Origin: Pseudomonadota bacterium
Lineage (GTDB): Bacteria > Bdellovibrionota > UBA1018
Direction of reading: 5' to 3'
Length of the DNA: 64,000 nt
NCBI GenBank assembly: GCA_027485695.1
Contig: JAIXQO010000002.1
Span: 749,212 to 813,211, forward strand
Position numbers and translations under genes: made by a program. Shown one piece after another: positions 508 through 4,890 of the stretch; position 1 is the stretch's first letter; each line of letters begins with the position of its first letter. The notes under the pieces were generated by a model, which saw only the letters and a program-made list of their open reading frames with translations, did not search any database and had not been told where the DNA came from.

Positions 508-2289
508 TTAACGGCGGAATACGCGAGAAAACAGGCGCCCGGCCCGGCTGGCCGCCCAATCGAACGCTTGAGCGGTATCGCGAATTCCCAGCCCTTTGCC
601 GATGACTCCGATCGCCCCGACCCCAATACAAACCTCGGCGCCGACCAAGATCAAGCGAATGGTCGTGCCGCTCGAGACAGCATCTCCGATGAAATGAGTC
701 AGCGCTAAATCCGCTCCGTAAACAACGGCGCCCATAAAACTCGCGACGAACAATTGCTCCAGGAATGCGCGGAAACAAGACCGGATATCGACGTACTCTC
801 GCAAGAGCACAAAAAGATAAGTCGAGTTCACGAACGCAGCGATCGAGGTCGCAAACGCCAGGCCCATCGGTCCGAAATGACCGATCAAATTCACGCCCGC
901 GAAATAAGAGATGAGGATCGTGAACAGACTCGAAACCACCGCCTGCTTGGTTTTGCGAGCGGCATAACAGACGGGCACGAGGATTTTTACCAAGGAGTAA
1001 AACGAGAGTCCTACCGCATAGCCTGCGACCACGCGAGCCGTGGCATGGGTATCGTCCGCATGAAATTTTCCATATTGAAAAAGCAGCGCCACGACCGGAA
1101 TCGAAGTCACCGCTAAGCCCACCGATGCTGGTAAATTCACCGCGAGAGCAAAACGAATGGATTTAGTGAGCGTCTCCCGAGCCTGAGCAACCTCACCGGC
1201 CGCAAGCCTCCGTGAAACCTCAGGCAGAGTAGCAGACGCGAGACTGACCCCAAAAATCCCAATCGGAAATTGCATCAAGCGAAACGCATAGCTGATCCAA
1301 GTAACCGCGCCTGCACCGAGGCCAGTCGCCAGCACGCTATTGATCAGAACGTTTACCTGAGTTGCAGCGAGTCCCACGATACTCGGAAGCATCAGAGCCA
1401 AGATCTCACCGAGCGCTTTTTCTTGGTGCCAAGGCGGAGCATCCGGGAGCTCTTCACGAGTTTCATAACGGTAGCCCGAACGGTACAAACTCGGTAACTG
1501 AGAGAACGCCTGCACGGCGCCGCCCAATACCACTCCGACCGCCATTCCGACGATCGCTTCTACGCCAAATTTCGGAAGCAGCCACGCAAAAAGCAGGCCG
1601 GTCGCGATGGACGTTATATTAAAAAGCGCGGATGCGAACGCCGGGAGAAAAAACTTACCGCAAGCATTCAAAATACCCATGAACGCGGCCGCGAGCGACA
1701 CGAGAGGAAAGAACGGAAACAAAACCTGGGTCATGAGGGTCGTGAGTTTGAATTTCTCCGGTATCTCAGCGAACGACGGCGCGTAGAGTTTGACTAAACC
1801 CTCAGAGAAAAAAATTCCGATGAGCGCGATGACAGAGCCCATGATGAAGAGCGCGCGAAATACGAGGCCGGCTACGCGCCAAGCTCGACGCTCGCCATCC
1901 CTCACCCTCACACGATGAAAGGTCGTGATAAAAGCGGAGCTGAGCGCCCCCTCTGCAAAAAGATCACGCAGCAAATTCGGGATTCGAAATGCGATGTAGA
2001 AAGCGTCGGTAAAATGTCCGGCCCCAAAGAAAATCGCGAACACCTGTTCTCGCACGAGACCAGTAATCCGGCTCAGAAAAGTCGCGGCACCCATGGCGCC
2101 TGCAGATTTAGCTACGGAGTGCGAGCTTGATGACGCCTCTACGCGTCCAGCTTGGCCTCGGGAAAGTTCTTCTTGAGCCATCGGTCGATTCCTTCGTCGA
2201 TCTTCGAACGGAACGGCAAGGCCAGGAGGCTCAGGTTGGCCTCCAGTCGAACGCAGCCAGGCTCGCAGAAGAGCTGAGCGTTCACCCAT
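508..2289 (-). CDS. murJ: Lipid II flippase MurJ (MviN family); true start probably internal (about 2181)
   Basis: AATFLSRITGLVREQVFAIFFGAGHFTDAFYIAFRIPNLLRDLFAEGALSSAF plus multi-TM pattern. Confidence 0.95.
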   Translation of the reverse strand: MGERSALLRAWLRSTGGQPEPPGLAVPFEDRRRNRPMAQEELSRGQAGRVEASSSSHSVAKSAGAMGAATFLSRITGLVREQVFAIFFGAGHFTDAFYIAFRIPNLLRDLFAEGALSSAFITTFHRVRVRDGERRAWRVAGLVFRALFIMGSVIALIGIFFSEGLVKLYAPSFAEIPEKFKLTTLMTQVLFPFFPLVSLAAAFMGILNACGKFFLPAFASALFNITSIATGLLFAWLLPKFGVEAIVGMAVGVVLGGAVQAFSQLPSLYRSGYRYETREELPDAPPWHQEKALGEILALMLPSIVGLAATQVNVLINSVLATGLGAGAVTWISYAFRLMQFPIGIFGVSLASATLPEVSRRLAAGEVAQARETLTKSIRFALAVNLPASVGLAVTSIPVVALLFQYGKFHADDTHATARVVAGYAVGLSFYSLVKILVPVCYAARKTKQAVVSSLFTILISYFAGVNLIGHFGPMGLAFATSIAAFVNSTYLFVLLREYVDIRSCFRAFLEQLFVASFMGAVVYGADLALTHFIGDAVSSGTTIRLILVGAEVCIGVGAIGVIGKGLGIRDTAQAFDWAASRAGRLFSRVFRR

Positions 2290-2456
2290 TTCGAATCGAG
2301 CTTGAATGTTTTTGCGTCACTGTCTTTACGCAGATCTACCGGACCAAGAGTGCCTTCTTGCGAGGCCTTGTACTTTTCAATGTCGCGATTGATTCGATCA
2401 AAAACTTCGGCGGCATCGACTCCGGGCAACAGAATTTTGCGTGAATATTTCGGCAT
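2139..2456 (-). CDS. Polyhydroxyalkanoic acid system (PHA_gran_rgn-like) family protein
   Basis: 105 aa, MPKYSRKILLPGVDAAEVFDRINRDIEKY...; overlaps the long murJ ORF start. Confidence 0.55.
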   Translation of the reverse strand: MPKYSRKILLPGVDAAEVFDRINRDIEKYKASQEGTLGPVDLRKDSDAKTFKLDSKWVNAQLFCEPGCVRLEANLSLLALPFRSKIDEGIDRWLKKNFPEAKLDA

Positions 2457-2473: not shown

Positions 2474-3034
2474 AAAACGGGGCCAGGGAGCAATGGTACA
2501 GCGAGGGGCAGCGAGGCAAAGAGGGCAATCGGGCAACGCGGAGGGCGGAGAAGCATTCGTGAAAGAGTACGCATACCGTCACTTTTGCTGCGGCTGAGTG
2601 GCTCGACACAATCGATAAAGTGAACCACCTAGCCGGGACAAGAGTCCATTTAGTTCCGGTTCACTCGCCGGATGAATATCAAAAATTGCTTCGCATTCTC
2701 GAAACGAGCCAAGCGCAATTCTGTAAAATTGATGCCGCTCTTTTTCGCTGCGACGAGCGGAGCCTTCTTTTAAATTAAGCGCAATTGAGGACGAAGCCCG
2801 ATCCAGTTGGTATTTGAGATCAGGAGGAAGCTTGATTTGCCGACAAATTTTTGCGAATTCAACCGCAAGATCATAGGTTCGAAAGCCGGACGAAAAAACA
2901 GGCGGTTGAGAGGTTTGAACTAAAGCATGAGCCATAAGGCTTCCGACTAGTGCAATCTTCTAGCCACAACAAGAACACTCACACCTTGCCTCGCTCACTG
3001 CCTGATTGCCCCATTGCCACTATGCCCCGTTTTT
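2474..3034. mobile_element. Putative IVS-like element: four-helix-bundle gene between imperfect inverted repeats
   Basis: aaaacggggc (2474-2483) vs gccccgtttt (3024-3033); gcgaggcaa (2511-2519) vs ttgcctcgc (2986-2994); gcaatgg/ccattgc and gggcaatc/gattgcc words on both arms. Confidence 0.6.
2579..2935 (-). CDS. Four helix bundle protein (23S rRNA intervening-sequence protein family)
   Basis: YDLAVEFAKICRQIKLPPDLKYQLDRASSSIALNLKEGSARRSEKERHQFYRIALGSFRECEAI, typical of the S23/IVP family. Confidence 0.88.
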   Translation of the reverse strand: MAHALVQTSQPPVFSSGFRTYDLAVEFAKICRQIKLPPDLKYQLDRASSSIALNLKEGSARRSEKERHQFYRIALGSFRECEAIFDIHPASEPELNGLLSRLGGSLYRLCRATQPQQK

Positions 3035-4890
3035 ATCAGTTCAACCTTAGCGAGTTCTTGTCCCAGCGTCACTTGATCGCCTGGTTTTACGTTCCAAGAA
3101 AGTACCTTGACCGGCGATAAAACTGCGTGAGGTACGAGCTGCCCGAGGCTGCGAATCATGACGAGACGTGACTGAGGCGCAATCTGCGCACCTGCCTTCT
3201 CAAAAATGGCGTGGACCTGACCACTCGCAAGCGCTGTGATTGAACGCTCCAGTGTAGTGCCGTTCCCAGCTTCTCCTAACCCGACTCGCCGAACGGAAAC
3301 CGTCCACACACCCACTCGGACGTTCCAGCGTCTTGCGGTCAGTGGATAAAAAGAAAACCGCGTTGGGGGTAAATCGGCGAATCTCACGAGTCCAGACGCA
3401 CCCTCAAAATCACCGACTCGAAACTTCGAATGTTCGCTTAACTCGAGCGGAATTCCACCCTCTTCGACCCATTGGCCGCTCACCACCCAACGGGCTCCGG
3501 GGTCGCCAAATAAACGCGCGGCCAGATCCACCACCTGGCGAAGGAAACTCGACGAGGGCCAAGACTCGGGAATAAATTCCTCGTCAGTAAAACCCGCATG
3601 AAAAAGATTTTCGCGAACGAACGGATGATGAAGGTGCTCAAGCGCAAACTTCTGATTGCTCAATAGCGATCCACTCATCCAGAAACCTTCGAGACGCTTG
3701 GTGGCAAGCTCCAATGCGCGTTTTCGTCCTCGCGCGAAACAGAAAAACTCGCCAATCACTCCAGAGGAATCCGGCATCACGTCCATACCGCTCTGATAAG
3801 GCGTCAGGAGAAATGCTTCGGTCTCTGCATCTTTCCAAACTCGTTCGGGACTCATTTCATGGATGCGGCCCGGAGCCGGTAACAAACGCACCGGATCTTC
3901 TGCATGCAGGCGAATGGAAATTCCCGCCTCGAACGGAAACGGTTCGCTGCGCTTAGGAGTACTCAATAGGCCCATCGAAGCGAGCTGCCACTCAAGAGCG
4001 GAAACTCCCGCCACTTTTTCCCAGAGTGGAAACGCAGCGTTCAATCTCGCCGAACCATCAATCAAATAGAGTCGGTCGGCCTCGGAGAGGAATTCGAGCG
4101 TTCCGATTCCTTCGAATCGAACATGGTTCGCCCACCGCCGCACATACTCCTCTACTCGTCGATGACTGGTGCCATCGAGATCCTGGGCCGGGCAAAACTG
4201 AATGAATCGTTTCCACCGATTTTGGAGCGAGCCATCGACGATCGGGAAAATCGTGATCTCACCTTCGCGATCTCTCGCAAACGGCACGATCCAGTGACGC
4301 GCACTCGTGAGCGTCCGCTCGATGATCGCCGTGGAGTCGCCATAGCGCTCGTCTAGTTGATCGAACCAAAGCGGGAGTTGAGCATGAAGATCTGCTTCGG
4401 AGCGCAGGTGGAGCGTACCGAAGCCGGCGCCCCCCAGAACGGATTTCAAAAGGAGAGGAAATCGTAAGCTATGTTCCGAGATGACTTCGCTGGCTTCTTT
4501 GACGGTGGATACCGGGTCCAGAGTCGCCGCCAGCGTCGGAATATCCAAAGACTGCGCCTGCGTGAGAAAACTGATCTTGTTCTGGTAAAGGCTCAGAAAC
4601 TTGGCTGACGGAGAAACAGGCACCATTCCTAAACTAGCGACCAATGACGGAAACGACGGCCGTTCCGACCAAAAAGAGATGCCAGGATGAACGAAAACTT
4701 CGGCTCCAGATTCCCCCATCGCTCGAAGCGCCGAGACCAATTCACCCTCATCTCGAGGAGTTGGCATCACAAACGTACCTCGACCCAAGCGCTCGAATCC
4801 TTCTCGAATTCGCTCGGCAAGCTCAGCAGGCCCGAATACAACGGCGAGCCGCGGGGTGTGAGTGGACATTTGAGCGAGCTTCAATCGCAT
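2995..4890 (-). CDS. Biotin-carboxylase-like ATP-grasp protein with C-terminal biotinyl/lipoyl-like barrel, probably catalytically degenerate
   Basis: HPGISFWSERPSF, FPLLLKSVLGGAGFG, GIGTLEFLSEADRLYLIDGSARLN; C-terminal SPVKVLSWNVKPGDQVTLGQELAKVE. Confidence 0.75.
   Translation of the reverse strand: MRLKLAQMSTHTPRLAVVFGPAELAERIREGFERLGRGTFVMPTPRDEGELVSALRAMGESGAEVFVHPGISFWSERPSFPSLVASLGMVPVSPSAKFLSLYQNKISFLTQAQSLDIPTLAATLDPVSTVKEASEVISEHSLRFPLLLKSVLGGAGFGTLHLRSEADLHAQLPLWFDQLDERYGDSTAIIERTLTSARHWIVPFARDREGEITIFPIVDGSLQNRWKRFIQFCPAQDLDGTSHRRVEEYVRRWANHVRFEGIGTLEFLSEADRLYLIDGSARLNAAFPLWEKVAGVSALEWQLASMGLLSTPKRSEPFPFEAGISIRLHAEDPVRLLPAPGRIHEMSPERVWKDAETEAFLLTPYQSGMDVMPDSSGVIGEFFCFARGRKRALELATKRLEGFWMSGSLLSNQKFALEHLHHPFVRENLFHAGFTDEEFIPESWPSSSFLRQVVDLAARLFGDPGARWVVSGQWVEEGGIPLELSEHSKFRVGDFEGASGLVRFADLPPTRFSFYPLTARRWNVRVGVWTVSVRRVGLGEAGNGTTLERSITALASGQVHAIFEKAGAQIAPQSRLVMIRSLGQLVPHAVLSPVKVLSWNVKPGDQVTLGQELAKVELIKTGHSGNGAIRQ

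Follow-up and report, generated by a model that had tools for sequence, protein, structure and literature searches.

The unit described here, found in the window (the whole analyzed stretch of DNA, 64 000 nt), belongs to a class of small insertion units that is widespread. Each such unit consists of a single gene for a four-helix-bundle (4HB) protein of the S23 type, or of a divergent pair of such genes around a central palindrome, beside degenerate arrays of 7–8-nt units. The units are located at gene boundaries, often between two successive genes of an operon, after the stop codon of the first and before the start of the second, and in the set found on plasmids their arrays are mostly inverted. 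In the window, the unit has been inserted into an operon, where it separates a carboxylase-like gene from a PHA_gran_rgn gene. Because similar units occur in several phyla and empty sites are present in close relatives, we consider the units to be tiny mobile elements of a class that is widespread but has been little described, in which a known IVS-type gene resides outside rRNA. The unit and its neighbors comprise the following features:

2139–2456, minus strand: PHA_gran_rgn-family gene (Pfam), the next gene of the operon, adjoining the carboxylase-like gene in about 30 relatives.
2474–2545, no strand: left arm, a AAAACGGGGC end followed by degenerate 7–8-nt units, on the downstream side of the 4HB gene; based on inverted repeats I1, I7, I8 and I16, the arm test and a gene-less copy on contig C1 with the same end.
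2579–2935, minus strand: 4HB (S23/IVP) gene, an ORF of 118 aa (ATG at 2933–2935, stop at 2579–2581).
2940–2944, minus strand: possible ribosome-binding site GGAAG, read from the sequence, before the 4HB start.
2985–3034, no strand: right arm, on the upstream side of the 4HB gene, pairing with the left arm and terminating in GCCCCGTTTT; based on inverted repeats, the arm test, an RNA fold that pairs both ends and a 43-nt match (86%) to the C1 copy.
2995–4890, minus strand: carboxylase-like gene (ORF, Pfam), whose orthologues end near the arm start.

The product of the 4HB gene matches both PF05635 (E-value 2.3e-13, 50.7 bits, cut-off 33.8) and TIGR02436 (E-value 1.2e-14, 54.4 bits, cut-off 24). 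Its AlphaFold2 model has four helices (pLDDT 86.8), and the closest solved folds, 2GSC (XCC0516) and 2RLD (S23 family), both represent the protein's own family. In the window's own genome (G000, ~93% complete), this is the only PF05635 gene that was found. Homologous 4HB genes at different places of one genome display dN/dS values of 0.03–0.14, and these paralogous proteins are thus under purifying selection.

The two arms are related by inverted repeats at 2474–2496/3011–3033 (23 nt, 78%), 2510–2519/2986–2995 (10 nt, 100%) and 2523–2535/2999–3011 (13 nt, 92%). In a joint alignment, the match between the arms covers the outermost 46 nt on the left and 49 nt on the right (AAAACGGGGC-CAGGGAGCAATGG...GCAGCGAGGCAA versus AAAACGGGGCATAGTG-GCAATGG...GTGAGCGAGGCAA). 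The strict score of this match, 29, was reached neither in 5000 dinucleotide shuffles nor by any of 8929 pairs of equal size from other parts of the window, the best of which scored 26; with looser scoring the match remains significant (p = 0.0004), 0.06% of the window controls being equally good. Both arms are composed of the degenerate units GGGGCAAT, CGGGCAAC and GAGGCAAA. In the minimum-energy RNA fold the two ends of the unit pair with each other. However, the fold energy of the whole unit provides only weak support alone (z-score −2.1; 6 of 100 shuffles fold equally well), and the same is true for the gene-less copy on C1 (z-score −2.4). Given arms that match beyond chance and predicted end-to-end pairing, the unit meets the IVS criterion of complementary termini able to form a stem around the ORF. 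The criterion of location in a 23S rRNA gene is not met, as there is no Rfam rRNA match within the window.

Both flanking genes are encoded on the minus strand, as is the 4HB gene. Their stop-to-start gap amounts to 538 nt in the window, compared with −1 to 79 nt (mostly 5–20) in about 30 genomes of the family. Since genes that are nearly adjacent in so many relatives are 538 nt apart here, the intervening DNA is an insertion. Thus, the window unit satisfies the definition of the class: a 4HB gene beside arrays of 7–8-nt (mainly 8-nt) units, and additional DNA at a gene boundary where the relatives have an empty site. The last codons and the stop of the carboxylase-like gene are read from the right arm. 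As there is no congener among the family relatives compared, the exact pre-insertion sequence is not established. Moreover, no target duplication of at least 4 nt is visible at the ends of the window unit, nor is one visible at its gene-less relative on C1. Recent mobility of the window copy itself is therefore not shown. The carboxylase-like protein stands alone and resembles biotin carboxylase (CPSase_L_D2, weak Biotin_carb_C); it terminates in a partial biotinyl-like stretch. Its family orthologues stop at the same point, so the truncation was not caused by the element.

Contig C1 of the same genome contains a gene-less unit of ~180 nt (468439–468623), which consists of arrays of the same repeat units as the window copy and has the AACGGGGCA...TGCCCCGTT ends in common with it. 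Another gene on C1 has a half array at its 3′ end (C1:432610).

An earlier note, made from the sequence alone, had described the region 2474–3034 as a 118-aa four-helix-bundle gene between imperfect inverted-repeat arms, of a family known from 23S rRNA intervening sequences and here situated between protein genes. All of this held: the gene through profile matches above cut-off, the AlphaFold2 model and PDB matches, the coordinates and arms through the located pairs and the 46–49-nt match, the family link through PF05635 and TIGR02436 (PMC4990558), and the position outside rRNA through flanks that are protein genes. The checks it proposed gave one further copy with the same ends in the genome (the gene-less unit on C1), an empty syntenic site in the relatives, arms more similar than in shuffled sequence by the strict score, and RNA folds in which the ends pair but the whole-unit energy is only weakly better than that of shuffles.

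Of 237 genomes of the host phylum, 68 contain PF05635, as do 19 of 56 relatives; a single genome can have up to 18 matches. Several genomes carry many copies that are 80–96% identical. Copies at different places are 82–91% identical in G001 and G022, while G118 (~100% complete) has four copies at 89–96% over the available stretches (two ~96%, one pair 85%). In G158, about ten full copies are accompanied by about a dozen short gene-less copies that start at the same point. Contigs often break inside these units, as assemblies do at repeats. Many units contain two divergent 4HB genes around a central palindrome; several abut stop codons, some of them between convergent genes (read by eye), and none of the loci tested with Rfam was located in rRNA. 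The arrays concentrate near the genes: within ~150 nt, C-N-G units at 7-nt spacing number 2.61 per flank, compared with 0.57 at 900 nt and 0.58 in shuffled sequence, and lag-7 periodicity (z > 2) is observed in 30% of near flanks versus 1.8%. Strict inverted pairing is a minority feature, exceeding the 99% control level at 6 of 71 loci; the remaining units have direct repeats or are too degenerate. This low yield is partly due to arms overlapping ORFs, and with other boundaries one locus (L015) scores 113. A fixed terminal motif across the class, AACGGGG, was rejected, being present in G000 and L012 and missing in most. No 4HB relatives in viral contigs could be confirmed.

Several additional arrangements were observed in this phylum. 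Two G118 copies, L141 and L142, are otherwise 89% identical but have the loop of their central palindrome, which lies between the divergent 4HB genes, in opposite orientations (GCACTATGGGCAG versus CTGCCCATAGTGC). In G158 (L145, L193–L212) direct copies of a ~75-nt core lie on either side of the 4HB pair; the core is also found by itself across the genome, bounded by 26-nt inverted ends (CTTTCTTCTTTT...). By analogy with solo LTRs, these solo cores could be products of recombination. Full-length, high-scoring PF05635 genes are also located a few hundred nucleotides from tRNA genes (L119, L120, L121, L124, L125, L126), possibly representing a separate, integrase-linked branch of the family. Finally, at L050 (G042:C433) ~200-nt segments with 4HB genes recur in opposite orientation 1.3–1.9 kb apart, which gives a composite appearance.

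In plasmids of cyanobacteria, Gemmatirosa, Azospirillum and Riemerella, most 4HB genes have inverted heptad arrays as close boundaries. The heptads vary (GGGAGTA, GGGTGTA, GGCAGGA, GGGAACA, GACAGGT, CAGAAGT, GGTTTAA). Over 21 loci including the window, the left and right arms of a locus are more similar to each other than to arms from other loci (median 34 versus 16, p = 1.5e-8). Twelve of the 21 loci exceed the 95% cross-locus level; the window, with a score of 29, is not among them. No inverted arm match was found at L228 and L233, and no array at L242.

Filled and empty versions of the same site are available for Nostocales plasmids. Site A is filled in Trichormus plasmid C and a Scytonema plasmid and empty in Aulosira, two Nostoc and Tolypothrix plasmids, with flanks ~97% identical. 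The filled junctions read AA-GTAAT-[unit]-GTAAT-TAAC, the empty site reads AAGTAATTAAC, and the comparison reveals an exact 5-bp target duplication, GTAAT. Heptads amounting to 14 nt distinguish the two filled copies, and a truncated remnant (L261) is also present at this site. Two plasmids of Nostoc sp. ATCC 53789 are reciprocal at sites B and C, the one filled where the other is empty; further Nostoc plasmids agree. Site B fits a TTCTA duplication with one base missing beside it, and site C fits a TAATG/TTATG duplication with one mismatch. A 5-bp duplication is therefore exact at one Nostocales site and imperfect at two, and is not established as a defining feature of the class. For the Riemerella plasmids no empty-site copy was found. 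Nostocales plasmids with both filled and empty sites represent ready test systems.

Three of the cyanobacterial plasmid units (L228, L231, L243) lie inside cas operons (cas6–cas4, cas10–cmr3). '23S rRNA IVP' domains occur in a survey of CRISPR-linked genes (PMC10910872). We infer that units in cas operons may account for such domains and could look CRISPR-associated in association screens.

Elsewhere in the class, the data show DNA-level insertion at intact gene boundaries, multiplication, changes in heptad number and short gene-less forms. That the class represents a mobile insertion unit with repeat-built arms is, in our judgment, highly probable. As the unit sequence varies between elements while the arms of one element usually match, the conserved feature looks like structure, namely a stem with several possible pairing registers, rather than like an invariant sequence at the ends. 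The mechanism is inferred. By analogy with the IVSs of 23S rRNA, the arms would fold into a long stem on read-through transcripts, and RNase III may cut this stem, so that insertion into an operon would be tolerated; there are no RNase III data. The 4HB protein, translated from the loop, would bind the stem as DNA or RNA and would recruit an enzyme supplied in trans that makes a staggered cut in the target; neither binding data nor a movement experiment is available. A reverse transcriptase in the genome is not required in this view. Taken as a whole, inferred steps included, we lean towards this combined explanation, though by no wide margin. Several points weigh against it. A target duplication is visible neither at the window copy nor at its C1 relative. 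A retro-step in some lineages cannot be excluded, considering the RVT_1 enrichment described below. In addition, strict inverted pairs are few in the host phylum, some units have direct repeats, L228 and L233 have no inverted match and L242 no array, and the whole-unit fold is weak.

The suggestion of a small 'mobile unit' in the earlier note is accordingly supported at the level of the class, by dispersed near-identical copies and by the filled and empty plasmid sites. An IVS-like mobile unit outside rRNA is thus supported; the enzyme that moves it is unidentified, and the window copy lacks a target duplication. The qualifier 'non-autonomous' is not proven, because the 4HB protein is under strong selection and may itself be the mobility factor. 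A bolder reading builds on this possibility. The 4HB protein would mobilize the members of a new class of minimal mobile elements that extends across phyla; the repeat-built stem would be recognized by its structure, leaving the repeat sequence free to change; and the IVSs of 23S rRNA together with many bacterial heptad arrays would be the rRNA-inserted and gene-less forms. As a joint claim, we consider this reading more likely to fail than to hold.

Among the rival explanations, a MITE-like unit survives best, although we find it unlikely. According to it, an IS transposase acting in trans recognizes the arms and generates 5-bp duplications, and the 4HB gene travels as cargo that serves the host in another way. 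The duplication at site A, the inverted ends and the gene-less short copies in G158 and G000 speak for it. A MITE would share defined terminal inverted repeats with an autonomous element; what is seen is ends common to the two G000 units. However, no end sequence is common across the class, and the arm sequence shifts while pairing stays. Furthermore, the G158 end motif was found only at these units, without any autonomous partner, and 4HB genes recur in units from phyla that are not related.

RNA-mediated spread is still less plausible, and we regard it as very unlikely. Here, the stem-loop RNA would be copied by a reverse transcriptase in trans (of the DGR or group II intron type) and integrate, the 4HB protein acting like Avd. 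In favor of it, PF05635 is homologous to DGR Avd (PMC10053308), and genomes positive for PF05635 are enriched in RVT_1 (odds ratio 2.5, p = 0.003), though PF05635 genes belonging to DGRs would yield the same signal. However, no RVT_1 profile match was detected in 6 of the 14 genomes with at least six PF05635 matches, nor in the window's own genome (genomes without a match: G000, G118, G158, G067, G215, G009, G036). The DGR criterion of a reverse transcriptase in the genome is thus not met in G000, with the reservation that this genome is ~93% complete; G118, ~100% complete and also without RVT_1, has copies that are 89–96% identical. Y1 transposases were likewise not found in the window's own genome and are not listed for G118 or G067. 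As a universal partner, either enzyme was rejected, since neither is present in all genomes.

The third possibility, an old resident gene whose flanking simple repeats grew by slippage as elsewhere in bacterial genomes, can draw on heptad numbers that differ between close copies (L237 versus L245) and on the abundance in Xanthomonas and Nostoc of heptad arrays for which no 4HB genes are reported (PMC4692102), but it is all but excluded by the filled and empty plasmid sites with ~97% identical flanks, by the empty window site in about 30 relatives, by dispersed copies in unrelated contexts and by the restriction to 68 of 237 phylum genomes.

The mobile insertion unit with repeat-built arms, which we prefer, resembles several known systems. 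MITEs and foldback elements are short units with inverted ends and gene-less forms and without a recognized transposase of their own; the ends of foldback elements are built of tandem short repeats. The 4HB units share the former properties but differ in carrying a conserved, selected protein gene, in having no fixed end sequence and in that no partner transposase was found. DGR Avd has a related four-helix-bundle fold and belongs to the same Pfam family (PMC10053308), whereas the window's own genome has no RVT_1 match. Heptad arrays are known as GGGNATC in Xanthomonas and Nostoc (PMC4692102) and as TAACTGA in Beggiatoaceae and cyanobacteria (PMC4679880). Like the arrays described here, they consist of 7-nt units, are intergenic and occur near stop codons, and Xanthomonas has 70–75 inverted pairs in close proximity. 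However, neither study mentions 4HB/S23 genes, and in PMC4692102 no general association with mobile elements is reported. In the open-access literature searched we found no paper joining heptad arrays to 4HB genes; an earlier description is not excluded, as subscription papers and preprints were mostly not covered.

The function and origin of IVSs and the role of abundant heptad repeats have been described as unclear (PMC4990558, PMC4692102, PMC4679880). Our data tie the IVSs of 23S rRNA and heptad repeats together in one insertion unit seen in several phyla. IVSs with an S23p ORF are known in 23S rRNA, for example in Coxiella burnetii (PMC4990558). The window unit is like them in its protein family, in complementary ends able to form a stem around the ORF and in the absence of a transposase, and the Coxiella IVS also has heptameric repeats (GACAGAT) beside its ORF (PMC4990558). 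It differs in that it is located between protein genes of an operon rather than in rRNA, and in that its arms are repeat arrays on both sides.
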